Source: Rhodococcus zopfii NBRC 100606 = JCM 9919 (GTDB taxonomy: Bacteria > Actinomycetota > Actinomycetes > Mycobacteriales > Mycobacteriaceae). Taken from it: a stretch of 64,000 bases of DNA. Positions 9,289-45,115 of the stretch are shown here, in pieces. Under the pieces are notes generated by a model that was given only the letters and a program-made list of their open reading frames with translations, ran no database searches and had not been told where the DNA came from. Position numbers and translations under genes: made by a program. Each line of letters opens with the position of its first letter. The stretch's first letter is position 1. The stretch covers positions 124,001 through 188,000 of the forward strand of contig NZ_BCXI01000010.1 in NCBI RefSeq assembly GCF_001895025.1, read 5' to 3'.

Positions 9289-11115
9289 ATGGATACCGGA
9301 TCGATTCCCGTCCTCACTGTCATCGGTCTGATCGCCGCCGCGGCCGCGACCGTCGCGATCGGGATCTACGGTGTTCGCCTGGCGCGTACCACCTCCGACT
9401 TCCTCGTCGCATCGCGCACCGTGGGGCCGCGCTGGAATGCCGCCGCGATCGCCGGTGAATACCTCTCCGCGGCATCGTTTCTCGGCGTTGCGGGGCTCGT
9501 CGCGAAGTACGGGGCCGACGCCCTGTGGTATCCGGTGGGTTTCGCCGCGGGCTATCTGGGCCTGCTGCTGTTCGTCGCGGCACCGCTACGCCGATCCGGC
9601 GCCTACACGGTGCCGGATTTCGCCGAGTTCCGGCTCGGGGCGCGCTGGCTGCGCACGCTGGCGATGATCGTCGTCGCCGTCATCTGTGTGCTGTATCTGG
9701 TGCCGCAGTTCCAGGGTGCGGGACTGACGTTGAACATCCTGCTGGGGCTGCCCGAATGGGTGGGTGTGGCCGCGGTCGGGGCGATCGTCGTCGGCAACGT
9801 CGTCGGTGGTGGCATGCGGTCGATCACGTTCGTGCAGGCATTCCAGTACTGGCTCAAACTCACGGCGGTGGCGTTGCCGGCGCTGGTGCTCACCGTGTAC
9901 TTTTTCGCCGACGACCGGGCCGTGTCCGAACCGGTGCCGCCGACCGTCACCGACCGCACCACCGTCGACATCACCACCGACGTGATCGTGCAGGTCGGTG
10001 AGCCGCTGCCGGTGACCGTCACCGGACACGTCGACGGCCGGCCGGTCTCGGGGCCCGTGCTGCTCGCGCCGGGTGAGCACGAGCTGTCGTCGGGCACCGA
10101 ACTGGTGCTCGACGCCGGTTCACCCGTTCCGGTGGTGGCGGGTGCGCCCGCGGACAACGACTCGTGGGCGTCGCCCGGCAACGGATTCGGCGGCGACTAC
10201 CCGATGTTCCAGGTGTATTCGCTCATCCTCGCGACGTTCCTCGGCACCATGGGCCTGCCGCACGTGCTCGTGCGGTTCTACACCAATCCCGACGGCCGCA
10301 CCGCGCGGGTGACCTCGCTCGCCGTGATCGCCCTGGTCGGGGTGTTCTACCTGTTCCCGACATTGCTCGGTGTGTTCGCGCGACTGTACGTTCCGCAGCT
10401 GCTCATCACCGGGCGCTCGGACGCAGCGGTGCTGCTGCTGCCGGGATCGGTGCTGTCCGGGTGGGGCGGGCAGCTGCTCGCGGCGCTCGTCGCCTCCGGT
10501 GCGATCGCCGCATTCCTGTCCACGTCGTCGGGGCTGCTGGTCAGTGTCGCGGGCGTGCTGTCGACGGATGTGCTGCGCGGCCGGGTGCGGGATTTCCGGA
10601 TTGCGGCGGTGCTCGCCGGAGTGGTGCCGCTGGCGTTGTCGCTGTCGGTGACCTCGCTGGACCTGTCGCGTTCGGTGGGGCTGGTGTTCGCGGTGGCGGC
10701 GTCGACGCTGTGCCCCCTGCTGGTCCTGGGCATCTGGTGGCGGGGGCTGACCGCAGCCGGGGCCGCCGCGGGCATGGTGCTCGGGGGGCTGGTGTCCGGG
10801 ATCGCGGCGATGGTGGTGGTGCTCGCCCCCGTCGATCCGGAACGCGGCGCGGGCTGGCTCGAGGTGCTCGTCGGCTACCCGGCCGCGGTGAGCGTGCCGC
10901 TGGCTTTCCTGACGATGGTGCTGGTCAGCCTCGTCACGCGCCGTTCGGTTCCCGCGGACGTGGGCCGCACCTTCTCGCGCATGCACGTCCCGGAACGGCT
11001 CGGTATGGGCCGTGACCGTGAGATCGGTGCGTTCGACGCGGGCGCGTTCGGTGCGGGCGAGTCGGGTTCGGGCGCACCCGGTTCAGCGGATCGGCGGCAC
11101 CGCTCGTCGCGGTGA
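9289..11115 (+). CDS. Sodium/solute symporter (SSS family) with extracytoplasmic insert
   Basis: A 608-residue SLC5-type (SSS) symporter for acetate or another monocarboxylate. About 13 membrane helices are visible. Early family motifs include GEYLSAASFLGVAGLVAKYG, and TMGLPHVLVRFYTNP near residue 320 is typical of the ActP subgroup. Unlike ActP it has an insert of about 90 residues (about 207-300), hydrophilic and beta-rich, between helices and expected outside the membrane. The C-terminal 40 residues are Gly/Ala-rich and low in complexity. It lies at the end of the LytS/LytTR operon, before a strong hairpin. Confidence 0.9.
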   Translation: MDTGSIPVLTVIGLIAAAAATVAIGIYGVRLARTTSDFLVASRTVGPRWNAAAIAGEYLSAASFLGVAGLVAKYGADALWYPVGFAAGYLGLLLFVAAPLRRSGAYTVPDFAEFRLGARWLRTLAMIVVAVICVLYLVPQFQGAGLTLNILLGLPEWVGVAAVGAIVVGNVVGGGMRSITFVQAFQYWLKLTAVALPALVLTVYFFADDRAVSEPVPPTVTDRTTVDITTDVIVQVGEPLPVTVTGHVDGRPVSGPVLLAPGEHELSSGTELVLDAGSPVPVVAGAPADNDSWASPGNGFGGDYPMFQVYSLILATFLGTMGLPHVLVRFYTNPDGRTARVTSLAVIALVGVFYLFPTLLGVFARLYVPQLLITGRSDAAVLLLPGSVLSGWGGQLLAALVASGAIAAFLSTSSGLLVSVAGVLSTDVLRGRVRDFRIAAVLAGVVPLALSLSVTSLDLSRSVGLVFAVAASTLCPLLVLGIWWRGLTAAGAAAGMVLGGLVSGIAAMVVVLAPVDPERGAGWLEVLVGYPAAVSVPLAFLTMVLVSLVTRRSVPADVGRTFSRMHVPERLGMGRDREIGAFDAGAFGAGESGSGAPGSADRRHRSSR

Positions 11116-15181: not shown

Positions 15182-15682
15182 ATGCCCTCGCCGCGCAGAA
15201 TCGGGGCTCCCGACGCGAAGAATCGGACGGTCCTGTTGGACGCGGCCGAAAAGGTGATGCTCGAGCACGGCTAAGCGGCCGTCTCGTCCCGCCGCCTCGC
15301 CGAGCAGGCCGGCCTCGAGCCGCAGCTGGTGCACTACTACTTCGTGAACATGGACGAGCTGCTCGAGGAGGTCTTCCGACGCCGCGCCGAGCAGGGTCTC
15401 GAGATCCAGGCGAAGGCGCTGGCATCACCTCAGCCGCTGTGGGCGCTGTGGCGGTTCAGCAGTGACCCGTCGGGAGTCGCGATCGGGGTCCTGCTCGATC
15501 GGTACGGCATTGCGCACGAGGATTTTCCGCCCGTCGTCGCCTCGGTTCTCACGACCAGCCTGTCCCGCGTCGTCGTGATGGAGGAGACGCTCGGTTTCAC
15601 CCTCGGTCACGCCGAAACCATCGAGCGGGTGGAGCGATGGCTCGTCGCGGTCGAGGGGGAGTGGGGCCGGCCGAGGGTGTAG
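15182..15682 (+). pseudogene. TetR-family regulator interrupted by a stop codon
   Basis: Reading from ATG 15182 gives a TetR-type N-terminus (RTVLLDAAEKVMLEHG), then a TAA at 15272-15274, then in the same frame AAVSSRRLAEQAGLEPQLVHYYF, the rest of the helix-turn-helix. The TAA stands where most TetR proteins have Tyr or Phe (HGY-A), so a single TAC/TAT to TAA change explains it. The remaining 136 codons encode the ligand-binding part. Reinitiation at the GTG at 15329 would lack the DNA-binding domain. The adjacent decayed SDR gene was probably its target. A sequencing error is a possible alternative. Confidence 0.8.
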
Positions 15683-15936
15683 AAAGCTCCGGACCCAGGC
15701 ACTCGACCGACGCCCGGCTCCGGCGGCATCAGGTCCGGCGGGCGCGCTGGTGAGGACATCGCCGCCGGTCCTCCACGAACTACGCGTGCACCCGAATGGT
15801 ATGCGGCAGAATGCATCCCGCCCTCCGCGATGCGCTCGAACACCGTCCGGTATTCGGCGGGGACTCCGTCGTCGGAAGGGCCTCGTCGGCGGAAGGTTCG
15901 GCTTCCTGGGCTATGGGTGCAGGGCGAGATCGGCGG
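15683..15936. other. Intergenic stretch without a supported gene
   Basis: 254 bp between the TetR remnant and the end of the flavin monooxygenase gene. Short open frames on both strands have no recognisable domain or Shine-Dalgarno. Confidence 0.5.
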
Positions 15937-17304
15937 TCATCCCAGTTCCTCGACGGAACGAGTAATACGCGGATCGGGCAGGCCGAAACGGCCACGGATG
16001 GTCGGTGAGTCGTACTCGGTCGGGAACACGCCCTCGGCCTGCAGAATCGGTACCACCTGCTGCACAAACCGCTCCAGATCCTCGTGCAGGATCGGGAAGT
16101 GGGCGTTGTATCCGGACACGGCGCCGTCCGCCCACCAGTCGATGAGGGCGTCGGCGACCTCCTTCGGTGTGCCGATGACCTGGCGGTGTCCGCCGACCTC
16201 GCCGACCCGGCGCACGATCTGCCGGGTGGTGGGCTCCTCGAGCCGTACCAGATCCTGCAAGGCCTTGCTGAAACCGATCGGCCGTGCCTGATCGTCTTGT
16301 GGGGCGAACCACTCTGCTTTCAAAGGCTTGTCGACGTCGATCGAGCGCGGCAGAGCCGGGTTCAGTGCGCGCTGCTCCGTCAGGAACCGGGCGATCAGTT
16401 CTTCTTCGCCGGAGACACCGTTGGTGACTTCGTGTCGACGCAGCGCCTCCTCGCGGGTGTCGCCGATGCACACGTTGACACCCGGGAACAGCCGGATGCT
16501 GTCGGCGGGGCGTCCGTGCGCGCGGGCGGCAGCGTCGAGTGTGGCCGCGTAGTCGAGCGCGGCCTGCTTGCTCAGCAGCGCCGCGTACACGATCTCTGCA
16601 TGCTTGCCCGCGAAGTCGATGCCTTGCGCGGAGGCCCCGGCCTGCGAGATCACCGGATACCCCTGTGGGCCGACCGGGACGTTGAGTGGTCCACGGACGT
16701 CGAAGAACTCACCGTGGTGGTCGATGACGCGGGCGGTGGTCTCGTCCCACAGCGGACCGGTCGGTTCCGGTCCGTCCGGGGCGTCCCACGACAGCCACAG
16801 TTTCTTGACCACCTCGAGGAATTCATCGGCCTTGCGGTAACGGTCCTCCCGGTCGAGCAGGCCGTCCGCGGTGAAGTTGGCGGCGATGTCGGGATTGAAG
16901 CCGGCGACGGCGTTGAAGATCACCCGACCGCCCGAGATGGTGTCGAGGCTTGCGAGTCGACGGGCCAGATTGTATGGGGAGTTGTAGCTCGTCGACGCGG
17001 TCAGCACGAACCCGATGTCCGGCACCGCCCCCGCGATCGCGGAGAACAGGGTGATCGGGTCGAAGAGATGCCCCGGGCCGCGGGAGGAATCACGTTGCAG
17101 TGCTGGATGATCCGAGACGAACACCGCATCGAGGATCCCCGATCTGGCGATCTCCGCCGAGCGTCGATAGTGCTCCCAGTCCGCGAAACGGTTCCACTTG
17201 GTACCGGGCCAGTTCCACGCCCTGGCCGAAGCCCCCGCCCCGACGATGGACGCGGCGAGCGTGAGCCTCCGCTGGGGTTGTGGCGGTCTCGCGGCGGTGC
17301 TCAT
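15937..17304 (-). CDS. FMN-dependent LLM monooxygenase (NtaA/SnaA/DszA family)
   Basis: A 455-residue flavin monooxygenase of the nitrilotriacetate monooxygenase/DszA subgroup of luciferase-like enzymes, using FMNH2 from a separate reductase and O2. Family features include the N-terminal AWNWPGTKWNRFADWEHY, then DAVFVSDHPAL, TASTSYNSPYNLARRLASLD and GGRVIFNAVAGFNPDIAANF, with QAGASAQGIDFAGKHAEIVY near the middle. Length equals DszA (about 453). GGAG lies 7 bases before the ATG at 17304. It is divergent from the rhodanese-DszC-like operon and close to an ABC importer, suggesting cleavage of an organosulfur or sulfonate substrate. The exact substrate cannot be read from sequence. Confidence 0.9.
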   Translation of the reverse strand: MSTAARPPQPQRRLTLAASIVGAGASARAWNWPGTKWNRFADWEHYRRSAEIARSGILDAVFVSDHPALQRDSSRGPGHLFDPITLFSAIAGAVPDIGFVLTASTSYNSPYNLARRLASLDTISGGRVIFNAVAGFNPDIAANFTADGLLDREDRYRKADEFLEVVKKLWLSWDAPDGPEPTGPLWDETTARVIDHHGEFFDVRGPLNVPVGPQGYPVISQAGASAQGIDFAGKHAEIVYAALLSKQAALDYAATLDAAARAHGRPADSIRLFPGVNVCIGDTREEALRRHEVTNGVSGEEELIARFLTEQRALNPALPRSIDVDKPLKAEWFAPQDDQARPIGFSKALQDLVRLEEPTTRQIVRRVGEVGGHRQVIGTPKEVADALIDWWADGAVSGYNAHFPILHEDLERFVQQVVPILQAEGVFPTEYDSPTIRGRFGLPDPRITRSVEELG

Positions 17305-17406
17305 GCGGATGCTCCGTTCGGTGGAAGGAAATCGGCGCGCGGACGGCTAATGGGATCCTGCGGCCGTACCGCCAATTGAGCACCGATCGACGCAGGCGCG
17401 TCAATG

Positions 17407-17431
17407 GTTAGGAATCGCCCTGATTCTTAAC
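17407..17431. promoter_or_regulatory. Candidate operator, 10-bp inverted repeat
   Basis: GTTAGGAATC at 17407-17416 and GATTCTTAAC at 17422-17431 form an inverted repeat with one mismatch around a 5-bp spacer. It lies about 100 bp upstream of the monooxygenase start and 230 bp upstream of the rhodanese start. The half-site GATTCTT recurs at 20034-20040, just before the solute-binding protein gene. Confidence 0.55.
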
Positions 17432-17489
17432 GCCGGCGCGAACATCCGTGGTGCGCTGCGGGACTCGGCCCGGCGCCCGCCGGACGTTA

Positions 17490-17504
17490 GAACCAGCGTG
17501 GTTC
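17490..17504. promoter_or_regulatory. Candidate operator, GAACCA-GCG-TGGTTC
   Basis: A perfect 6-bp inverted repeat around 3 bases in the same divergent region, 160 bp before the rhodanese start. It is the size of a dimeric regulator site; the regulator is unknown. Confidence 0.45.
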
Positions 17505-17663
17505 ATTTCCCCGCGACCGGCGTCTCCGCAGTTCAGGGCTGTGCGCGCGGAGCGCCGGATCTTCTCGTCCCCGGCAGGGCCCAGCGCCCGTGATTACCCT
17601 GTGACGACCGGCCGTCGCGCCGCATCCGATCCGATCCCCTACCCGTGAAAGTGGACGACACAC

Positions 17664-18770
17664 GTGAGCACTTCTTCGACCGAAAAGACCGGCACCGCGG
17701 AGAGAGTCATCGACGCCGACACCTTCCGGGAGTGGCTCGCCGACGGAGCGGAATTGGCCGTCATCGACATCCGTCCGAGCGAGGAGGTCGGCTACGCGTC
17801 GCCGCTGTTCGCCACCAACCTTCCTGCGGACCGGATCGAGGCCGAAATCGACCGGTACGTTCCCCGGGCGGTGGTCCGGACCGTCCTCGTCGACGGTGGT
17901 GACGGGGTGGCGCAGTCCGTCGTGGCCCGGCTCGCCGACGTCGGCCGCCGCGACATCCACGTGCTCGCCGGCGGTATCCCGGAGTGGATCCGCAACGGCG
18001 CCGACGACCTGCCCACCTTCGACGTCCCGGGCAAGGACTTCTCACTCGGCATCCGCGACGAGCGCGGGACGCCGGTGGTGACCGCCGCGGAGCTCAGATC
18101 TCTCCAGGACCAGAGCGCGGACGTCGTCGTCATCGACACCCGCACAGTCTCCGAGTTCACCGCAGGCCACGTCCCAGGCGCTGTCAGCGTCCCGGGTGCG
18201 GAGTTGCTGCTGAGGTTCGCGGACGTTGTCCCGTCGCCCGACACCCATGTCGTCGTCTCCTGCGCCGGGCTGCCCCGCGCGATCATCGGCGCCCAGACGC
18301 TGATCGACTCGGGCGTCCCGAACAGGGTGTCCTACCTGCACAACGGCACCCGGGCCTGGAAGGAGGAGAACCTCGAGCTCGAGACCGGAGCTACCGCCGT
18401 TTACGGACCGGTCGGCGACGCCGCCCGGGAGGTCGCCGCGCAGCGCGTCGAGGCCATCGCCGCCGACGACGAATTCCCGCGAATCGACGTCGAGACCGCG
18501 CAGGCCTGGGCGGCCGATCCGGACCGCACCACCTATCTGCTCGATGTGCGCACTCCGGAGGAGTTCGAGCAGGCTCACCTCCCTGGATCGATCACTTCCG
18601 AGGGCGGGCAGCTGCTCGGCGTCTCCTACCGCACGATCGCGGTCCGCGGGGCGCGTGTCGTCCTGATCGACGACCTCACCGGAGCGCGCGCCGCGGTCGT
18701 CGCCCACTGGTTGCAACGACGCGGCTTCGACATCGCCGTCCTCCTGCACGATTTCGACGCCGCAGTCTGA
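17664..18770 (+). CDS. Three-domain rhodanese-like protein
   Basis: A 368-residue protein with three rhodanese-like domains (about 14-112, 137-240 and 273-365). Each keeps the strand pattern around V-I-D-(I/T)-R or L-L-D-V-R. Only the middle domain has a cysteine in the active-site loop (Cys200 in VVVSCAGLPRA); domain 1 has VDGGDGVAQ and domain 3 has IDDLTGAR there, so both are probably non-catalytic. Such proteins transfer sulfane sulfur or bind sulfur carriers in the cytosol. The start is GTG at 17664. It lies 46 bp before the DszC-like gene on the same strand, so sulfur released by the monooxygenases may pass through it. Confidence 0.88.
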   Translation: MSTSSTEKTGTAERVIDADTFREWLADGAELAVIDIRPSEEVGYASPLFATNLPADRIEAEIDRYVPRAVVRTVLVDGGDGVAQSVVARLADVGRRDIHVLAGGIPEWIRNGADDLPTFDVPGKDFSLGIRDERGTPVVTAAELRSLQDQSADVVVIDTRTVSEFTAGHVPGAVSVPGAELLLRFADVVPSPDTHVVVSCAGLPRAIIGAQTLIDSGVPNRVSYLHNGTRAWKEENLELETGATAVYGPVGDAAREVAAQRVEAIAADDEFPRIDVETAQAWAADPDRTTYLLDVRTPEEFEQAHLPGSITSEGGQLLGVSYRTIAVRGARVVLIDDLTGARAAVVAHWLQRRGFDIAVLLHDFDAAV

Positions 18771-18816
18771 GCACGCGGCCTCCGCCCATCCACGCCTTCC
18801 GGGAGCAGAGCACACC

Positions 18817-19947
18817 ATGACCCTCACCTTCGATACCCCGATCGACACGAGCAGTGCAGATCGGGTCGATGCCGCCGACGAGCTGCTCCTGGTGGCGCGG
18901 ACGCGGACGTTCGCCTACGAGACGCTCAAACCCCTTGCCCTGCTCACCGATACCGAGGGCGTGACCACCGAGACGGTCGAGGGACTGCGCAGGATCGGGT
19001 TGCTCAACCATCTCGCCCCCGCTCGCTTCGGCGGTGGCGAATTGGACAAGGCCGCCGAGCGTCGCGTTCACGAGCATCTCGCCTACGGCGACTTCAACAC
19101 CTGGCTGGCGTGGGCTCAGCACACGGGGTTGCTCGAGCATTTCTCCACCCTGGCCAGGAGCGGCAAGCCGATCGGTGACCTCGGTGAACGGATCCTGCGT
19201 GGGGAGATCCTCAGCGGCACAGCGATCAGCGACGCTCGGCACTACCCGGAGCGGTATGTCCGCGCTACTCCGGTGGACGGCGGGTGGACGATCGACGGCA
19301 CGGTGTCGTGGGTGAGCGGCTGGGGCGTCAACGCCGTGCTGTCGGTTGCCGCGATCGATCCGGCCACCGAGACGCAGTTGCTCGCCCTGATCGACGTCGC
19401 CGACGAACGTTTGAGCGCCGAGCCGCTTCCTCTCGCCGCCGCGAGCGGAAGTCGCACGTGGCGGATCACCTTCGATGGTGTTCTCGTCTCCGAGTCCGAC
19501 ATCGTCAAGCGCACACCACGATCCGAATGGGATGTCCGCGACCGGAAGATCGTCAGCGACGTGCGGCCGCAGGTGTTCGGTGTGGCACGTGCGATCCTCG
19601 ACGAGTTGCGCGACGCCGACACCGATGCCACACACGCCGTGGTGCAGGCATGGGCGCCACCGTTCGCTCGCTACCGGGCGCTGGCGTACGACCTGGCCGA
19701 TCGAGCAGAGTCGGATCCTCGTGGCCCACAGTACTTCCCGGAGAGGCTTGCACTCAAGGTCGAGACGCTGCGGTCGCTCCACAAGATCTCCCGTGCGCTG
19801 CTGATCTCGCGTGCAGGCACGGGAATTCTCGGGACGGACACCGCCCAGCTGCACGCCCGGTCGGTACTCTTCCTTCAAGTTCAGAGTCAGAACCAGCGTT
19901 CCCGCACGGCGCAACTCGCCGACATCGCGGAGTCGGCGCCGTTCTGA
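18817..19947 (+). CDS. Acyl-CoA-dehydrogenase-fold flavoprotein (DszC/SfnC-like)
   Basis: A 376-residue protein of the acyl-CoA dehydrogenase superfamily, in the branch used by flavin monooxygenases such as DszC. The N-terminal helical domain contains LRRIGLLNHLAPARFGGGE, the middle beta domain GTAISDARHYPERYV and GWTIDGTVSWVSGWG, and the C-terminal helices follow from about residue 250. The catalytic glutamate of true dehydrogenases was not found, consistent with an oxygenase role. Co-location with a DszA-type enzyme, a rhodanese and an importer points to oxidation at sulfur of an imported compound. A 97-bp gap separates it from the importer genes. Confidence 0.85.
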   Translation: MTLTFDTPIDTSSADRVDAADELLLVARTRTFAYETLKPLALLTDTEGVTTETVEGLRRIGLLNHLAPARFGGGELDKAAERRVHEHLAYGDFNTWLAWAQHTGLLEHFSTLARSGKPIGDLGERILRGEILSGTAISDARHYPERYVRATPVDGGWTIDGTVSWVSGWGVNAVLSVAAIDPATETQLLALIDVADERLSAEPLPLAAASGSRTWRITFDGVLVSESDIVKRTPRSEWDVRDRKIVSDVRPQVFGVARAILDELRDADTDATHAVVQAWAPPFARYRALAYDLADRAESDPRGPQYFPERLALKVETLRSLHKISRALLISRAGTGILGTDTAQLHARSVLFLQVQSQNQRSRTAQLADIAESAPF

Positions 19948-20000
19948 GAAGGGTTTCCGTACGGCTGCTTCTCTCCGGTCGGATTCTCGTCATCACGGTT

Positions 20001-20006
20001 TAATAT
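20001..20006 (+). promoter_or_regulatory. Possible -10 element of the importer operon
   Basis: TAATAT, an unusually AT-rich hexamer for this DNA, lies 39 bases before the ATG of the solute-binding protein gene. No convincing -35 was identified. The GATTCTT half-site at 20034-20040 overlaps the likely leader. Confidence 0.35.
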
Positions 20007-20044
20007 CCTGACTTGGCAACAACTTTCACCATAGATTCTTGTTC

Positions 20045-21733
20045 ATGGAAACAACAGATCACGCCCCACGATCGGCGGGCTTGCGCCGGCGGCGTTTTCG
20101 AGGCGTGTTCGGCGCTCTCGCACTGACCGGCGTCCTTGCCGTCACCGCATGCAGCGGCAGCATCGACGCGGCCGGCTCCAACGGAGGCGGCGAGCCGCAG
20201 TCCGGCGGAACCCTGCGGATCGCTCTCCTCAGTTCTCCCGAGTCTCTGGACCCGCACCTGAACACCTCCTTCGCGGCCAGCAATTACGGCAACAGCGTCT
20301 TCGACAAACTCACCTGGCAGGACCCGGAGACCGGCGAGATCGGTCCCTGGCTCGCCACCTCGTGGGAGGTCGACGACACCAACACCGAGTTCACGTTCAC
20401 CCTCCGCGACGACGTCACCTTCAGCGACGGCACCCCGTTCAACGCGGACATCGTGAAGAGGAACTTCGACCAGTACGTCTTCGGCGATCCGGCGCTGGGT
20501 GTCAAGCCCAACGGCGCCACCCATCTGCGCTCGTATCGGGGGAGCGAGGTCGTCAGCGACCACGTCGTCAAGATCGTCTTCGATGCCCCGTCCGCGAGCT
20601 TTCTGCAGTTCATCTCCTACTCGGGCAACAACCAGCCCGGCATCATCGGCCAGAAGACCCTCTCGTCGAACGCCGAGCAGCGCCTCGACCCTGCGAACAT
20701 CGTCGGTACCGGCCCGTTCGTCGTCACCGAATACGTCCCCCGGGAGCGCACGGTACTCACCAAACGCCTCGACTATCACTGGGCCGCTCCGGGTCTGAAC
20801 CACGAGGGCCCCGCCTACCTCGACAAGGTCGAATTCGTCACCATTCCCGAGGCGAGCGTCCGCACCGGTGCGCTCCAGTCGGGCGAGGTGCAGGCCGCGT
20901 TCGACATCCTGCCCACCGACGAGGCGGTCCTCGAGGCGCAAGGCTACGACATCACCTCGCGGACCATCGCCGGGCTCAACCTCGGCTGGAATATCAACAC
21001 CAGCCTCGAGCCCACCAACGACATCAACGTCCGCCGCGCGATCGTGCGGGCCACCAACCGGCCCGGTTTCAAGGACACCATCCTCGCCCCGTCCGAGGGT
21101 CAGGCGAAGTCCGTACTTGCCCATCATATCCAGGGTGCGATCGACTACACCGACGACGTGTTGGGATACGACCTCGACGAGTCCAGGCGTCTGCTCGACG
21201 AAGCCGGGTGGAAGGTCGGTGCCGACGGCATCCGGGAGAAGGACGGAAAGAATCTCACGCTCAAAGCCACCGGGCACTACCTGGTTCCGAACAGCCGCTA
21301 CACGTACGAGTCGATCCAGGCTTCACTCAAGGAGATCGGCGTCGACCTCGACTTCCAGTTCGATGCCAGCAACATCCCGACCGACCAGATCAACAAGGAA
21401 TACCACCTGATCAACACCAACCGCAGCCGCAACGACCCAGCGATCCTGAACGTCAACTTCAACCCGGACCGGGGCAACTCGGCCCGCATCTCCGCGGACT
21501 TCCCCGGCCGGCAGGAGATCGTCGACACCCTCGAAGCGCTCGAGTCCACCCTCGACCCGACGCAGCGGGCCGTGCTGACCGAACGGGCCCAGGAACTGGT
21601 CCTCGATGAGTACGTCCTGTTCGACCCGGTGTTCGAGCCGTCGCAGGTGGCCGCGTCCAAGGGCGTATACGGCCTCGACCTCGACGCCACCAGCCGACTG
21701 CACTTCCTCCGCACCTGGATCGACCAGGGCTGA
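20045..21733 (+). CDS. ABC importer substrate-binding lipoprotein (family 5)
   Basis: A 562-residue extracellular solute-binding protein of family 5 (DppA/OppA/NikA type). A basic N-terminus and hydrophobic stretch end in the lipobox VTACSG, so the protein is anchored by a diacylated cysteine. GGTLRIALLSSPESLDPHLN and the FTFTLRDDVTFSDGTPFNA segment are characteristic. ATG 20045 was chosen over a TTG two codons earlier. It heads a complete importer operon with two permeases and a fused ATPase. Given the neighbours it may bind an organosulfur compound instead of a peptide; this is inference. Confidence 0.92.
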   Translation: METTDHAPRSAGLRRRRFRGVFGALALTGVLAVTACSGSIDAAGSNGGGEPQSGGTLRIALLSSPESLDPHLNTSFAASNYGNSVFDKLTWQDPETGEIGPWLATSWEVDDTNTEFTFTLRDDVTFSDGTPFNADIVKRNFDQYVFGDPALGVKPNGATHLRSYRGSEVVSDHVVKIVFDAPSASFLQFISYSGNNQPGIIGQKTLSSNAEQRLDPANIVGTGPFVVTEYVPRERTVLTKRLDYHWAAPGLNHEGPAYLDKVEFVTIPEASVRTGALQSGEVQAAFDILPTDEAVLEAQGYDITSRTIAGLNLGWNINTSLEPTNDINVRRAIVRATNRPGFKDTILAPSEGQAKSVLAHHIQGAIDYTDDVLGYDLDESRRLLDEAGWKVGADGIREKDGKNLTLKATGHYLVPNSRYTYESIQASLKEIGVDLDFQFDASNIPTDQINKEYHLINTNRSRNDPAILNVNFNPDRGNSARISADFPGRQEIVDTLEALESTLDPTQRAVLTERAQELVLDEYVLFDPVFEPSQVAASKGVYGLDLDATSRLHFLRTWIDQG

Positions 21734-21802
21734 TCGTCCACCCCGGGCCGATTCCACAGGATCGGCTCGGGGTGCGTGCTGCCGCACTCGAAAAGGATCC
21801 CG

Positions 21803-22753
21803 ATGACACGCTATGTCCTCCTGAAACTGGGGCGAGGCCTGGTGGTGGTGTGGGGCGCGTTCACCGCGTCCTTCGTCCTGCTGTACCTGCTGCCCGCCAG
21901 TCCCATCGAACTGCTCTTCAATCCCGAAGAGCGTAACGACATCTCACCCGAGGCGTACGCCCAGATCGAGCAGCAGTACGGTTTCGACCGGCCGGTGTTC
22001 GTTCAGTACCTCGACCGGCTCTGGGCCGCACTGCATCTCGACTTCGGGGCCTCGGTCCAGAACGGCAAGCCGGTGGCTACCGCGATCGCCGAGGCGCTAC
22101 CGAAGACCATCGTGCTTGCGGTGGCGGCGCTGATCCTCGCGGCATTGATCGCACTCGCTGTCGCGTGGGTCGCGACCTACCTCGAATCCCCGTGGCTGCG
22201 GAACGTCATCGCCGGCTTGCCGCCGCTGCTGGTGTCGTTCCCGAGCTTTCTGCTCGGCCTCATCATCATCCGTGTCTTCTCCTTCCAGCTCGGGTGGTTC
22301 CCGCCGATCAGCCGCGACGGTCTGCACGGAGTGGTGCTGCCCGCCTTCGCGCTGGCGATCCCCGTCGCCGGCCCCATCGCGCAGCTGCTGCTGCGCAACT
22401 TCACCACCGAGTACGGCTCGCCGTATGTCCTGACGTCCTTCAGCAAGGGTCTGCGCAAGGCGAGGGTGCTCAACGGCGACGTCCTGCGCAACGCCAGCCT
22501 GCCCGCGCTCACCCAGGGCGGCATCATCGTCGGTGAACTGCTGGCCGGCGCCGTGATCACCGAGACGATCTTCTCCCGCAACGGAATCGGCCGTCTCACC
22601 GAACAGGCGGTCCGCGCCCAGGACGTTCCCGTCGTCCAGGGCGTCGTCATGTTCGTCGCCCTCGCGTTCGTGACGGTCAATTTCGTCGTCGACGTCGCGT
22701 ATCCCCTCATCGACCCTCGACTCAAAGCCGCCCGCGAAGGGGTAACCGTATGA
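21803..22753 (+). CDS. ABC importer permease (DppB type)
   Basis: A 316-residue permease with six predicted helices, of the DppB/OppB family. It starts RYVLLKLGRGLVVVWGAF, and the segment VLNGDVLRNASLPALTQGG around residue 230 is the EAA loop that contacts the ATPase. AAAAGGA at 21791-21797 precedes the ATG at 21803, which is preferred over an upstream start. The stop overlaps the next permease by ATGA. Confidence 0.92.
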   Translation: MTRYVLLKLGRGLVVVWGAFTASFVLLYLLPASPIELLFNPEERNDISPEAYAQIEQQYGFDRPVFVQYLDRLWAALHLDFGASVQNGKPVATAIAEALPKTIVLAVAALILAALIALAVAWVATYLESPWLRNVIAGLPPLLVSFPSFLLGLIIIRVFSFQLGWFPPISRDGLHGVVLPAFALAIPVAGPIAQLLLRNFTTEYGSPYVLTSFSKGLRKARVLNGDVLRNASLPALTQGGIIVGELLAGAVITETIFSRNGIGRLTEQAVRAQDVPVVQGVVMFVALAFVTVNFVVDVAYPLIDPRLKAAREGVTV

Positions 22754-23694
22754 CGATCGACAGCGACCGCACGCTCGTCGCCGAACCGGTCCCGACCGCC
22801 GTTCCGGAGCGGGCCGCGACACCAGCTGCCCTGCCCCCACCGCTCCCCAACCCGGACACACCGCCACGTCGGCGCTTCGGCGCACTGACCCCGATCCTGT
22901 CGCGTCCGGGTCTCACGGTGGCGGTGCTCGTCGTCGTCCTCGCCGTCGCATGGTGCGTCGCGCCGGGCTTGTTCACCTGGAAGGACCCGTACCTTCCGGA
23001 TTCCACCGCGATCCTCGTCGGCCCCAGCGCCGACCACCCCTTCGGCACCGACCGGCTGGGTCGCGACATCTACTCGCGCACCGTGCACGGTGCTGTGATC
23101 ACCCTCAGCGCCACCCTCCTCGCCGTCGCGATCGCCTTCGTCATCGGTACCGTCCTCGGAGCGATCGCGGGATTCGTCGGAGGCACCGTCGAACTCGTCA
23201 TCATGCGCGTCGTCGACGTGTTGCTGTCCGTCCCCGGTCTGCTGCTCACCATGGTCGTGGTCTCGGCGCTCGGATACGGCACGCTGAACGTCGCCATCGC
23301 CGTCGGTGTCTCCGCGGTCGCCAACTTCGCGCGGGTGATGCGCGCCGAAGTGCTGCGCGTCGTGCAGGCCGATTACGTCGAAGCCGCCGCGAGCATCGGC
23401 ACACCCCGGATGAGCATCCTCACCCGCCACGTCCTGCCGAACTCCCTCAGCTCGGTCGTGTCTCTGATCCCGCTGCAGTTCGGCGCGTCGATCCTGGCGA
23501 TCGCGGCCCTCGGATTCCTCGGATTCGGCGCTCCGCCACCGGAACCGGAATGGGGCCTGTTGGTTTCCGAGGGCCGGGACCTGCTGGCGATCGCCCCGTG
23601 GATCTCGCTGCTGCCCGGATTCGTCATCCTGGCGGTCGTACTGTCCAGCAACCGAATCAGCCGTGAACTGCAGAACGACGGAGACGCGCGATGA
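22750..23694 (+). CDS. ABC importer permease (DppC type)
   Basis: A 314-residue permease of the DppC/OppC family. A proline-rich cytoplasmic N-terminus (about 50 residues) precedes the first helix. DHPFGTDRLGRDIYSR is the hallmark of DppC-type permeases, and YVEAAASIGTPRMSILTRHV is the EAA loop. It overlaps both neighbours by four bases (ATGA), so SBP-permease-permease-ATPase form one operon. Confidence 0.93.
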   Translation: MTIDSDRTLVAEPVPTAVPERAATPAALPPPLPNPDTPPRRRFGALTPILSRPGLTVAVLVVVLAVAWCVAPGLFTWKDPYLPDSTAILVGPSADHPFGTDRLGRDIYSRTVHGAVITLSATLLAVAIAFVIGTVLGAIAGFVGGTVELVIMRVVDVLLSVPGLLLTMVVVSALGYGTLNVAIAVGVSAVANFARVMRAEVLRVVQADYVEAAASIGTPRMSILTRHVLPNSLSSVVSLIPLQFGASILAIAALGFLGFGAPPPEPEWGLLVSEGRDLLAIAPWISLLPGFVILAVVLSSNRISRELQNDGDAR

Positions 23695-25364
23695 CCCTGT
23701 TGTCCTTCGAGGACGTCGAGATCTGGTACGTCGGGCGGGGAACGTCCCCGACCAAGGCTGTCTCCGGTATCAGCCTCGACGTCCGGCCCGGAGAACTGGT
23801 CGCCATCGTCGGAGAGTCCGGATCGGGAAAGTCCACCCTCATCCTGTCGGCGATCGGTCTGCTTCCCCGCAGCAGCCGCGTCGAGGGGCGAATCCTACTC
23901 TTCGGCAACGATGTTGCGGGTTGGAGTCCGAACAAGTTTGCTCGCTACCGGGGCAGCTACGTCGGTTTCGTCCCCCAGGACCCGGGTGTCTCGCTCAACC
24001 CGGTCAAGCAGATCGGGAAGCAGCTCGAGGACGCGCTGAGCAACCGGACCGGGAAGAACCGGCTGCTGCCGTTCAGCGTGTCGGCGCAGCGGCACACTCT
24101 GAAATCGCAGGCGCTGAAGTTCCTCGAACTTGCCGGGCTCGCCGACCCCGGCCGCATCTACGCCAAGTATCCGCATGAGCTGTCGGGCGGCATGAAGCAG
24201 CGAGTGCTCATCGCGATCGCCCTGTCCGGCGAGCCAAAACTCCTCATCGCCGACGAGCCGACCAGCGCCCTGGACGTGACCGTCCAGAAACAGATCCTCG
24301 ATCACCTCGACCGGCTCCGCACCGAGCTGGGTATCGGAATCCTCCTGGTCACACACGATCTCGGTGTCGCACTCGAGCGCGCTGACCGCGTCGTTGTGAT
24401 GCGCGGCGGTGCCGTTGTCGAGGATGGCCGCAGCGCCGAGCTCCTGCACCACGCGGCCGACCCGTACACGCGGCGACTCCTCGACTCTGCGCCCGGCCTG
24501 CATACCGGAGGACTGACCCCGAGGCCGATCCGCCTCGGTCCCCTCGCCGCGCACACCACCGCCGACAGGCCGGGCATACGCAGCTCGGCCCAGTACGCGA
24601 TCGACGTCAAGGGAGTTTCGAAGACGTTCCACGCCGCGCACAGCAGTACGGAACCCGTGGTCGCGGCCGCCGACGTCTCGTTCCGTGTCGCGACCGGCAC
24701 CACCCACTCCCTCGTCGGCGAGTCCGGGGCCGGCAAGTCCACGATCGCGCGAATCGTCGCGGGACTGCGCACCCCCGACGCCGGCGAGGTCACCCTACTC
24801 GGCAACACCGGCAGCTGGAGCCGCAGGGAACTGAGCCGGCGGCTGCAGTTCGTGTATCAGAACCCGTACTCCTCGCTGAACCCGCGGCTGTCCGTCGCGG
24901 ACCTGATCACCGAACCGCTGCGCGTGCACCGCAAAGAAGTCGACCGCACGCAGCGTCGCGCGATCGCCGAGGAGCTGCTGGACGGGGTCCGGTTGGACCG
25001 CAAGTACGCCGCGCGGCGGGCGGGGGAGCTCTCCGGTGGGCAGGCGCAGCGGGTCGCGATAGCCCGCGCCCTCGCCCTGAGCCCGGAGATCGTCATCCTC
25101 GACGAGGCGGTCTCCGCTCTCGATGTGTCCGTGCAGGCGGAGATCCTGCAACTGCTCGTGGACCTGCAGGCGGCGTACTCGTTGACCTACCTGTTCATCA
25201 CCCACGATCTCGGGGTGGTGCGGCTCATCGCGGACACCGTGACCGTGATGCGGCACGGAACCGTCGTCGTATCTGGTTCTGCGGCACAGATTCTCGACGA
25301 TCCCACGGATGAGTACACGCGGCGGCTCGTCGACTCCGTACCGGGCAGCCATCTGTTCCTCTGA
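23691..25364 (+). CDS. Fused dual ATPase of the ABC importer (DppDF type)
   Basis: A 557-residue protein with two ABC ATPase domains (about 1-260 and 300-557), a fusion of DppD- and DppF-like subunits. Walker A motifs are GESGSGKST near residue 43 and GESGAGKST near residue 343. The signature motifs are LSGGMKQR and LSGGQAQR, and the Walker B motifs LLIADEPTSALD and IVILDEAVSALD. The two domains can pair to power the adjacent permeases. It is the last gene of the importer operon, followed by a hairpin at 25375-25404. Confidence 0.93.
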   Translation: MTLLSFEDVEIWYVGRGTSPTKAVSGISLDVRPGELVAIVGESGSGKSTLILSAIGLLPRSSRVEGRILLFGNDVAGWSPNKFARYRGSYVGFVPQDPGVSLNPVKQIGKQLEDALSNRTGKNRLLPFSVSAQRHTLKSQALKFLELAGLADPGRIYAKYPHELSGGMKQRVLIAIALSGEPKLLIADEPTSALDVTVQKQILDHLDRLRTELGIGILLVTHDLGVALERADRVVVMRGGAVVEDGRSAELLHHAADPYTRRLLDSAPGLHTGGLTPRPIRLGPLAAHTTADRPGIRSSAQYAIDVKGVSKTFHAAHSSTEPVVAAADVSFRVATGTTHSLVGESGAGKSTIARIVAGLRTPDAGEVTLLGNTGSWSRRELSRRLQFVYQNPYSSLNPRLSVADLITEPLRVHRKEVDRTQRRAIAEELLDGVRLDRKYAARRAGELSGGQAQRVAIARALALSPEIVILDEAVSALDVSVQAEILQLLVDLQAAYSLTYLFITHDLGVVRLIADTVTVMRHGTVVVSGSAAQILDDPTDEYTRRLVDSVPGSHLFL

Positions 25365-25748
25365 CGGAGTACCAGGGAATGTCTCCCGATCCGGGGGCAT
25401 TCCCCTTGCGCTCTCGGAAGAGCCCGCCGGTCGTGGGTCCCCTTCCGGTGAGGAGAACGTCCCCGCCTTCGCAAGCGTCCAGTCTCGCGTGTTGTGGCTG
25501 GGGACAGTGGGCGCATTACGCCGGTGTCGGTCGAAACCCCGCGCACGGTCGGTGGCCGAACCGCCGGCCACGTCGAAGAGCAACGTCGCGGCCTCGAGGG
25601 TCTGTTCGAGCTTCGGTGCCTGGGTCTGGGCGAGGGTGATCGACTCGGCTCGAGCGCATGTCCGTACTACTGCGAGACCTGCCGACACAAAAGTCGAGCC
25701 CGTGAACCGGGCTACCCTGCGGGCGGATCGGTGTCTACGCTTCCGCGC
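25365..25748. other. 384-bp intergenic stretch with a hairpin
   Basis: The stretch begins with nested inverted repeats (GGGAATG at 25375-25381, CATTCCC at 25398-25404, inner CCC/GGG pairs) that may terminate the importer operon. The rest has open frames on both strands but no recognisable protein. It marks the junction between the accessory block and the conserved Rv0910-like gene. Confidence 0.5.
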
Positions 25749-44171: not shown

Positions 44172-45115
44172 GCCGTGACCTCCTGCCCGCGTCGGGCCTG
44201 CCGGGCGAGCGCGCGGTCGCGGGACTCCTCGAACCGCACCGCCTGCGCCTCGAGGTCGACCAGGAACGTGTCGAGCTGCTCGCGCAGATCCTCACCGCGC
44301 GCACCGAAGTCGGTGCGTTCGAAGATCCGCCACTTGCGCAGCACCGGCTGCACGACCTCGTCGAGATGCTGACGCAGATCGTAGATTCCGCCCTTGGCGA
44401 TGAGCACCGCGTTGCGCCGGAAGTTCGCCATCGAGGCACCCGGCATCTGAAAGTTGGTGAGCACCCGCACGACGGCGTGGAGTGCCTGATCGGGTGCGAT
44501 GTCGAGGGCGCCTTCGACGATGTTGCGGTAGAACATCATGTGCAGGTTCTCGTCCGCGGCCACGCGTGCGAGCATCCGGTCCGCGATCGGATCACCGCAC
44601 GCCTTGCCGGTGTTGCGATGGGAGACGCGGGTCGCCAGTTCCTGGAAGGTCACGTACGACACCGAATCGAGCATCGACGTGGCGCCGGGCGCGAACCCGT
44701 TCGTCATGTGTTCCATCCGCGCGTTCTCCAGCGCGACCGGATCGACACCGCGGGTGACCACCAGATAGTCCCGCATGACGACGGAATGCTTGTTCTCCTC
44801 GGCGGTCCACCGTCCGACCCACGTGCCCCACGCCCCGTCGAAACCGAAATGCTCGGCGATCTCACGGTGGTACGACGGCAGGTTGTCCTCGGTGAGCAGG
44901 TTGGTGATCATCGCGGCCTTCGCCGTCTCGCTGAGCGCGGACTGCTCCGGGTCCCAGTCGACGCCGCCCAGCGCCGCGAAGTTGCGGCCGTCGTCCCAGG
45001 GAACGTAGTCGTGCGGATGCCAGTCCTTCGCCATCGACAGGTGCCGGTTGACGTTGTCCTCGGCGACCGGTTCTAGTTCGCGGAGCAGCTCGATATCCGT
45101 GAGTTCTCGTGTCAC
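44168..45115 (-). CDS. desA: Acyl-ACP desaturase, DesA1-like
   Basis: A 315-residue soluble diiron desaturase resembling mycobacterial DesA1 (Rv0824c). Matching blocks are NRHLSMAKDWHPHDYVPW, TEDNLPSYHREIAEHFG, WTAEENKHSVVMRDYLVVTR and ADENLHMMFYR; the EENKH and DENLH motifs supply iron ligands. It should introduce a double bond into an acyl-ACP, using ferredoxin-type electrons and O2. It lies 21 bp after the Acg-type nitroreductase gene and overlaps a small downstream gene, so the three form an operon within the hypoxia region. Confidence 0.93.
   Translation of the reverse strand: MTRELTDIELLRELEPVAEDNVNRHLSMAKDWHPHDYVPWDDGRNFAALGGVDWDPEQSALSETAKAAMITNLLTEDNLPSYHREIAEHFGFDGAWGTWVGRWTAEENKHSVVMRDYLVVTRGVDPVALENARMEHMTNGFAPGATSMLDSVSYVTFQELATRVSHRNTGKACGDPIADRMLARVAADENLHMMFYRNIVEGALDIAPDQALHAVVRVLTNFQMPGASMANFRRNAVLIAKGGIYDLRQHLDEVVQPVLRKWRIFERTDFGARGEDLREQLDTFLVDLEAQAVRFEESRDRALARQARRGQEVTA

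Follow-up and report, generated by a model that had tools for sequence, protein, structure and literature searches.

Soil sulfur is largely organic. Fuel thiophenes, dimethyl sulfide, and simple sulfonates are the substrates of the desulfurization pathways in the literature that we found, and several published gene sets look similar to the seven-gene island discussed here. The island lies at positions 15937–25364 of a window of 64,000 nucleotides, which is the whole stretch analysed (Rhodococcus zopfii NBRC 100606 = JCM 9919, contig NZ_BCXI01000010.1, positions 124,001 to 188,000 of the forward strand; coordinates below are counted from its first letter). It combines a monooxygenase, a three-domain rhodanese, a flavoprotein of the acyl-CoA dehydrogenase (ACAD) fold, and a four-gene importer. 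We consider it likely that these genes form a module for organosulfur acquisition, mobile between lineages. No paper naming the island was found in the searches made of the open-access literature.

In an RNA-seq comparison of benzothiophene with sulfate in Gordonia terrae C-6, the monooxygenase gene GTC6_13080 was up 43-fold, and GTC6_13085, 13090, 13095, and 13100, which code for a peptide-type solute-binding protein (SBP) and ATP-binding cassette (ABC) transporter components, were up 37–59-fold (PMC3868597); the gene order is taken from the gene numbers. In Gordonia alkanivorans 135 on dibenzothiophene (DBT), the acyl-CoA dehydrogenase QGP87979, the next-numbered NtaA/DmoA protein QGP87980, and SfnB were reported up (PMC11852219), with log2 values that are negative in Table 2 and positive in Table 3 for the same comparison. 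An SfnB region was also proposed for DBT use in Gordonia (PMC9861168). In Rhodococcus qingshengii IGTS8 on DBT, proteins of the nitrilotriacetate (NTA)-monooxygenase type stand above a 'downregulated' heading and are linked to probable sulfur acquisition (PMC8557817). Dimethyl sulfide is a substrate of ACAD-fold group D enzymes in Acinetobacter baylyi, which rely on a shared reductase to oxidise it (PMC13352529), and in organosulfur catabolism a rhodanese gene is known next to the gene for a thiol dioxygenase (PMC5373536). In Chelativorans, the importer of ethylenediaminetetraacetate (EDTA) shares an operon with EmoA, and its SBP is of the same superfamily as that of the island (PMC7312458). 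The published induction of similar-looking sets when an organosulfur compound replaces sulfate would indirectly support organosulfur acquisition, by analogy. G. terrae C-6 was absent among the 120 of 228 protein-search matches listed.

All seven open reading frames (ORFs) were verified, with GC by codon position that is coding-like, and the gene content and order described in an earlier note on this DNA were recovered. The monooxygenase gene is divergent from a six-gene run on the plus strand (17664–25364). It codes for an FMN-dependent luciferase-like monooxygenase (LLM, P0001; 15937–17304, minus strand) of group C and of the NtaA/DmoA/EmoA type, which passed the TIGR03860 NtaA/DmoA cut-off (368.3 vs 279.7 bits). 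The plus-strand run starts with the rhodanese (17664–18770) and the ACAD-fold flavoprotein (P0003; 18817–19947), which is probably a group D monooxygenase. The solute-binding lipoprotein follows (P0004, SBP_bac_5 type; PF00496, lipobox-like VTAC; 20045–21733); its ORF spans 20039–21733, and the ATG at 20045 is the likelier start. Permease 1 of the Dpp/Nik type (21776–22753) and permease 2 (22750–23694) both matched PF00528 (BPD_transp_1), and the fused two-domain ATPase (23691–25364) has two PF00005 (ABC_tran) stretches. The claim of a complete Dpp-type importer, made up of the lipoprotein, both permeases, and the fused ATPase, was borne out by these Pfam matches. The claimed ATGA coupling held for permease 1/permease 2 and permease 2/ATPase, but the other junctions are gaps of 46 bp (rhodanese–ACAD), 97 bp (ACAD–SBP), and 42 bp (SBP–permease 1).

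A profile search for the ACAD-fold protein, with each species represented by a single genome, yielded 43 distinct loci, several of them on short contigs. A neighbourhood match was counted when at least half of the query was covered, with flanks up to 10 kb; the SfnB-like, SsuD-like, and further extra-gene queries came from two of the counted loci (L068 and L062), so that self-matches are included. All four importer genes were present in 21 of the 43 loci and at least three in 23. SfnB-like matches were observed in 26 loci, SsuD-like LLMs in 24, NtaA-like LLMs in 27, any LLM in 31, and an SfnB-like match together with an LLM in 25. Seventeen of the 26 SfnB-like matches showed at least 52% identity (one is the query's own locus), and nine showed 31–39%, values which other ACAD-superfamily members might give. 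The L068 proteins scored 272.7 bits on TIGR04022 (SfnB-like; cut-off 430.9) and 215.2 bits (SsuD-like; equivalog cut-off 518.2), and as both stay below the equivalog cut-offs they are relatives, not proven equivalogs. An aldo/keto reductase and a major facilitator superfamily protein also recur in this set. In L133 and L134, a Pfam run on the flanking genes found no sulfur family.

A relic of an SfnB-family gene, its C-terminal end, is located directly behind the ATPase gene (25422–25652, minus strand). It matched four SfnB-like queries with 42–56% identity over 41–59 residues (E 1e-8 to 3e-5) and spans positions 313–383 of TIGR04022 (E 3e-7), which physically ties the island to the SfnB-bearing kind. 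The R. zopfii genome holds three SBPs with 35–100% identity over more than 500 residues, each about 5 kb or less from an LLM above the TIGR03860 cut-off; nine LLM places above this cut-off in the 6.3 Mb genome serve as a rough yardstick. Two further loci of this genome were noted separately: a paralogous island on contig 35 (L083, 35001–54000) with an ACAD, an SsuD-like LLM, an importer, an SfnB-like gene, and LLMs, and a third importer–LLM set on contig 29 (L155, 30000–49900; SBP 38–40%).

LLMs of the P0001 type (E 1e-120) were found in 3 of 394 class genomes, R. zopfii included, and each has an SBP match (35–100%) within about 4 kb. The two outside R. zopfii show 57–61% identity, with the SBP match at 35%. 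The M. wolinskyi relative (L080, 60%) lies inside an importer–SfnB gene string, with an SfnB-like gene, an importer, and an ACAD in one string. In genome G356 the SBP match is partial (354 of 564 residues), a 66-residue SfnB-like match lies about 6.6 kb away, and an ACAD match was not found near the LLM.

The distribution of the island agrees with horizontal acquisition followed by partial loss, or with assembly on separate occasions. Among 17 same-genus genomes, none had a close relative of the ACAD-fold protein (best E 4.6e-7 vs 3.5e-248 for R. zopfii itself) and none had the rhodanese at E 1e-80. Conserved linkage of all seven genes, which the earlier note had made a test of its proposal, is not general: among the loci read, the complete set was found elsewhere only in R. 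koreensis, a count that leaves out two candidates with both proteins on contigs of equal length (Williamsia sp. and Rhodococcus sp. NPDC003318). Comparison of window positions 10001–32000 with the R. koreensis locus (L040) gave three shared stretches between 15968 and 25347 at 83–84% nucleotide identity, and outside them only 51 bases (15760–15810) are shared. In R. koreensis the island holds an LLM relative of 85% identity, an SfnB-like gene adjoins this LLM, and a second ACAD and an SsuD-like LLM are located within 10 kb. R. kyotonense and R. yunnanensis carry the rhodanese–ACAD pair, and importer or LLM matches were not found nearby. The proposal of organosulfur acquisition with its own importer was supported by the other-species neighbourhoods and the SfnB relic, but not in its strict seven-gene form.

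The rhodanese showed three PF00581 domains above the cut-off and a catalytic-type cysteine, Cys200, in the CAGLPR loop of the middle domain, which assigns it to the rhodaneses as judged from sequence. An alignment of the query with its best 120 of 981 matches has Cys200 in all 121 rows, and every other column of this alignment shows cysteine in at most 10 sequences. Among the same best 120 matches, the closest named relative was from Rhodococcus zopfii (95%). Relatives in the short group measure 354–385 aa. In a tree of 36 hand-picked sequences (28 short and 8 long, with a long-branch warning among the long rows), a branch with 100/100 support set the short form apart. The rhodanese was matched in 5 of 401 family genomes at E 1e-80, R. 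zopfii included, and in 16 of 394 class genomes at E 1e-30, with only R. zopfii above 41% identity.

Eight long-form rhodanese loci were read: a cysteine dioxygenase is annotated in six of them and a cupin in a seventh, and the last has neither. Six dioxygenase/cupin queries matched in 7 of 8 proteobacterial long-form loci, and since the queries came from six of these loci, six of the seven positives are self-matches. The same queries matched in 0 of 20 actinobacterial long-form loci (about 1.5 kb on each side) and in 0 of 15 short-form loci, the window included. A cysteine dioxygenase as partner of the island rhodanese was rejected on this result, the one such match in the R. zopfii genome being on another contig. 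Actinobacterial long forms in the class sample had an SfnB-like match in 5 of 20 four-kb loci.

A plasmid search with the rhodanese matched 107 records, 22 of them at 60–80% identity. Ten of these 22 loci, all rhizobial and several closely related to one another, were read (L089–L093, L102, and L124–L127); an LLM was present in 8 of 10, an SBP in 9 of 10, and a DszB-like protein in 6 of 10, labelled as a transporter subunit wherever it is annotated. In L102 and L125 a DszB-like match was found elsewhere on the plasmid, at a distance of about 12 and 23 kb, respectively. With P0003 as query, a plasmid-borne close relative was discarded, as just 10 records of Rhodococcus plasmids gave partial matches at no more than 31.7% identity. 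The apparent LLM–ACAD fusion P0042 looks like a read-through of adjacent genes on a metagenome contig and was excluded.

The DszB-like protein P0248 (L090, 12378–13415, minus strand) is annotated as an ABC transporter substrate-binding protein, and a signal peptide was not evident on reading. NCBIfam placed it in the SsuA family below the cut-off, which fits its transporter annotation. Its solved matches at E 0.001 were two DszB sequences and nothing else. Cys27, His60, and Arg70 of DszB, named as active-site residues in PMC12168087, align to C14, H55, and R65 of P0248. The three residues are kept in five other proteins (L089, L091, L093, L124, and Variovorax L095). Of the six DszB-like rhizobial loci, the five aligned all keep these positions; the residue alignment leaves out L126. 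P0248 matched 104 plasmid records, mostly of Sinorhizobium and Rhizobium. P0248 and its relatives may function as DszB-like desulfinases, so that part of the rhizobial proteins labelled 'ABC transporter substrate-binding protein' may in fact be desulfinases. In the window and in the R. zopfii genome P0248 matched nothing, as a query without a positive control there.

The solved relatives of the LLM allow a different explanation, namely aminopolycarboxylate or metallophore use, in which a chelator is imported, the LLM cleaves a C–N bond as EmoA and NtaA do, and the rhodanese and ACAD-fold protein are loosely linked neighbours. The nearest solved relative is the EDTA monooxygenase EmoA (5dqp), which scores 314.3 bits and shares 188 of 422 aligned residues (44.5% identity), compared with 183.3 bits for DszA; the SBP resembles the NikA and CntA models; and the Chelativorans importer cited above has an SBP of the same superfamily and is co-located with EmoA. 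The NikA and CntA models, however, matched the SBP far below their cut-offs (NikA, TIGR02294, 159.2 vs 393 bits), and its best NCBIfam model was TIGR04028 (KPN_01854 family; 335.9 bits, below the cut-off of 468.5). Chelator use also fails to account for the SfnB-like neighbours and the SfnB relic or for the rhodanese clade, and both class-sample LLM relatives outside R. zopfii adjoin an SBP match, in M. wolinskyi together with an SfnB-like gene and an ACAD. Because of the EmoA match we retain chelator use as an unlikely explanation, though one to be reckoned with. Accidental linkage of a peptide importer with unrelated oxidoreductases is very improbable. The importer subunits do belong to the Dpp/Opp/Nik superfamily, but the genes are found together repeatedly, across families and also in rhizobia, with sequences that diverge and gene orders that differ. 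The DppA model gave 78.2 vs 1005 bits, and the aspartate that we take to hold the peptide amino end in DppA is a serine in the window SBP, in an alignment at just 23% identity. This serine would argue weakly against a peptide-specific SBP, and no sulfur ligand is thereby demonstrated.

The ACAD-fold protein could alternatively be a CoA-thioester enzyme (a sulfinyl-CoA desulfinase or a dehydrogenase), so that sulfite would be freed from a CoA intermediate and not by S-oxygenation. Pfam detected solely Acyl-CoA_dh_N (PF02771). The structure model (pLDDT 93.0) gave full-length matches to the ACAD superfamily, including DszC, TdsC, and nitrososynthases, with true dehydrogenases tied or nearly tied, so the fold agrees with a CoA enzyme as well as with a monooxygenase. 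In rhizobial locus L090, the ACAD-fold protein matched 3-sulfinopropanoyl-CoA desulfinase with 101.7 bits (cut-off 600), behind SfnB with 118.9. P0003, for its part, matched no NCBIfam CoA-enzyme model at E 0.001, no CoA ligase was recognised among the seven genes, and an ungapped extension of the human short-chain acyl-CoA dehydrogenase alignment (not structure-aligned) put no glutamate at the usual C-terminal position, which is presumably that of the catalytic base. We regard a CoA-thioester enzyme as improbable. The label 'DszC-like' given earlier is apt for the fold and weak for the sequence.

Organosulfur acquisition remains the explanation that we favour, and several results weigh against it. 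The only NCBIfam match of P0003 was to DszC and fell far below the equivalog level (22.6 vs 850 bits), no match to the SfnB family (TIGR04022) was found at E 0.001, and the fold ranking is unable to tell a monooxygenase from a dehydrogenase. The LLM is nearer to EmoA than to DszA, and none of the island genes was recognised as coding for a flavin reductase. Eleven of the 43 ACAD loci lack an SBP, SfnB, or LLM match, including the rhodanese–ACAD pairs L041 and L042, and the neighbourhood counts stand without a matched random-locus control. In N. asteroides the rhodanese stands alone, the other island proteins being unmatched within about 9 kb; in Agrobacterium L092 and L127 only the rhodanese, the SBP, and ABC ATPases were found among the queries, with no LLM match. 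The published induced genes were likened to the island by gene type and not by sequence, and two other rhodaneses of R. qingshengii IGTS8 are reported down on DBT (PMC8557817).

In the mechanism that we propose, the lipoprotein and the Dpp/Nik-type ABC importer would import an organosulfur compound that is polar and probably anionic. The ACAD-fold flavoprotein, in a DszC-like role, would most likely oxygenate the sulfur, and the NtaA/DmoA-type monooxygenase, in a DszA-like role, would most likely cleave the C–S bond. For reduced flavin, both oxygenases would depend on a reductase whose gene lies outside the island. The single cysteine of the rhodanese could take up or buffer the sulfur of sulfinate or sulfite as persulfide or thiosulfate, for cysteine synthesis, and the genes may be regulated by sulfur. 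More tentatively, and with doubt prevailing, the short single-cysteine three-domain rhodanese may mark an organosulfur desulfurization module that Actinobacteria and Rhizobiales have exchanged; no name for such a module was found. In rhizobia, the LLM, the ACAD-fold protein, and the DszB-like protein annotated as a transporter subunit might together act like DszABC on a natural compound of the soil, with the rhodanese taking the released sulfur as enzyme-bound persulfide or thiosulfate so that free sulfite does not escape. The importer-bearing actinobacterial module, with its related parts on rhizobial plasmids, points to a natural class of substrate, one that was not found assigned in the searches made.

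The divergent intergenic region contains a perfect inverted repeat, GAACCA-GCG-TGGTTC (17490–17504), which is a possible operator. It has a single exact match in the R. zopfii genome and is partly kept in R. koreensis. Allowing one mismatch gave six sites (one exact and five others) compared with one for the reversed control; this surplus is suggestive only, and a genome-wide operator regulon was not accepted on these counts. A sulfur riboswitch was likewise discarded, as Rfam, applied to the whole window with its gathering thresholds, matched just a tRNA and the small RNA ASdes, neither inside the island; the ASdes match lies at 44730–44797 (plus strand; 42.4 bits vs 40 needed). Upstream of the island are a choloylglycine-hydrolase-family protein (PF02275; 13326–14540, minus strand) and a TetR-like reading frame (15182–15682, plus strand) with an in-frame TAA at about 15272, due to a pseudogene or a sequencing error.

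Compared with dszABC of the 4S pathway in Rhodococcus and bdsABC of G. terrae C-6, the island has in common an ACAD-fold flavoprotein and an LLM, and oxidative C–S cleavage for sulfur would be expected. It differs in that its LLM is nearer to EmoA than to DszA, it has its own Dpp-type importer and a rhodanese, and a desulfinase was not found in the window with the P0248 query, which had no positive control. With the sfn/ssu/msu systems (SfnB, SfnG, and SsuD) it shares the SfnB-like and SsuD-like relatives in other-species neighbourhoods and the SfnB relic in the window, whereas the importer is of the SBP_bac_5 type and not SsuABC, and none of the seven genes was recognised by NCBIfam as an SsuD or SfnG equivalog. 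The Chelativorans EppABCD/EmoAB system has an LLM to which that of the island is 44.5% identical (EmoA), and its importer, encoded next to the monooxygenase, belongs to the superfamily of the island importer, but an EmoB- or IdaA-type gene was unrecognised among the seven, and that system leaves the rhodanese and ACAD-fold protein unexplained. The four-domain rhodanese PA2603 (1yt8), which stands beside a cysteine dioxygenase, is the nearest solved relative of the island rhodanese, and long forms like it are likewise found in organosulfur-like neighbourhoods. The island rhodanese has three domains and lies in a separate clade (100/100), and none of the 15 short-form loci gave a dioxygenase-like match, which sets it outside the PA2603 group. 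The island is new in how its genes are combined and in its short rhodanese clade, which has partners across phyla; its enzymes belong to no new class.

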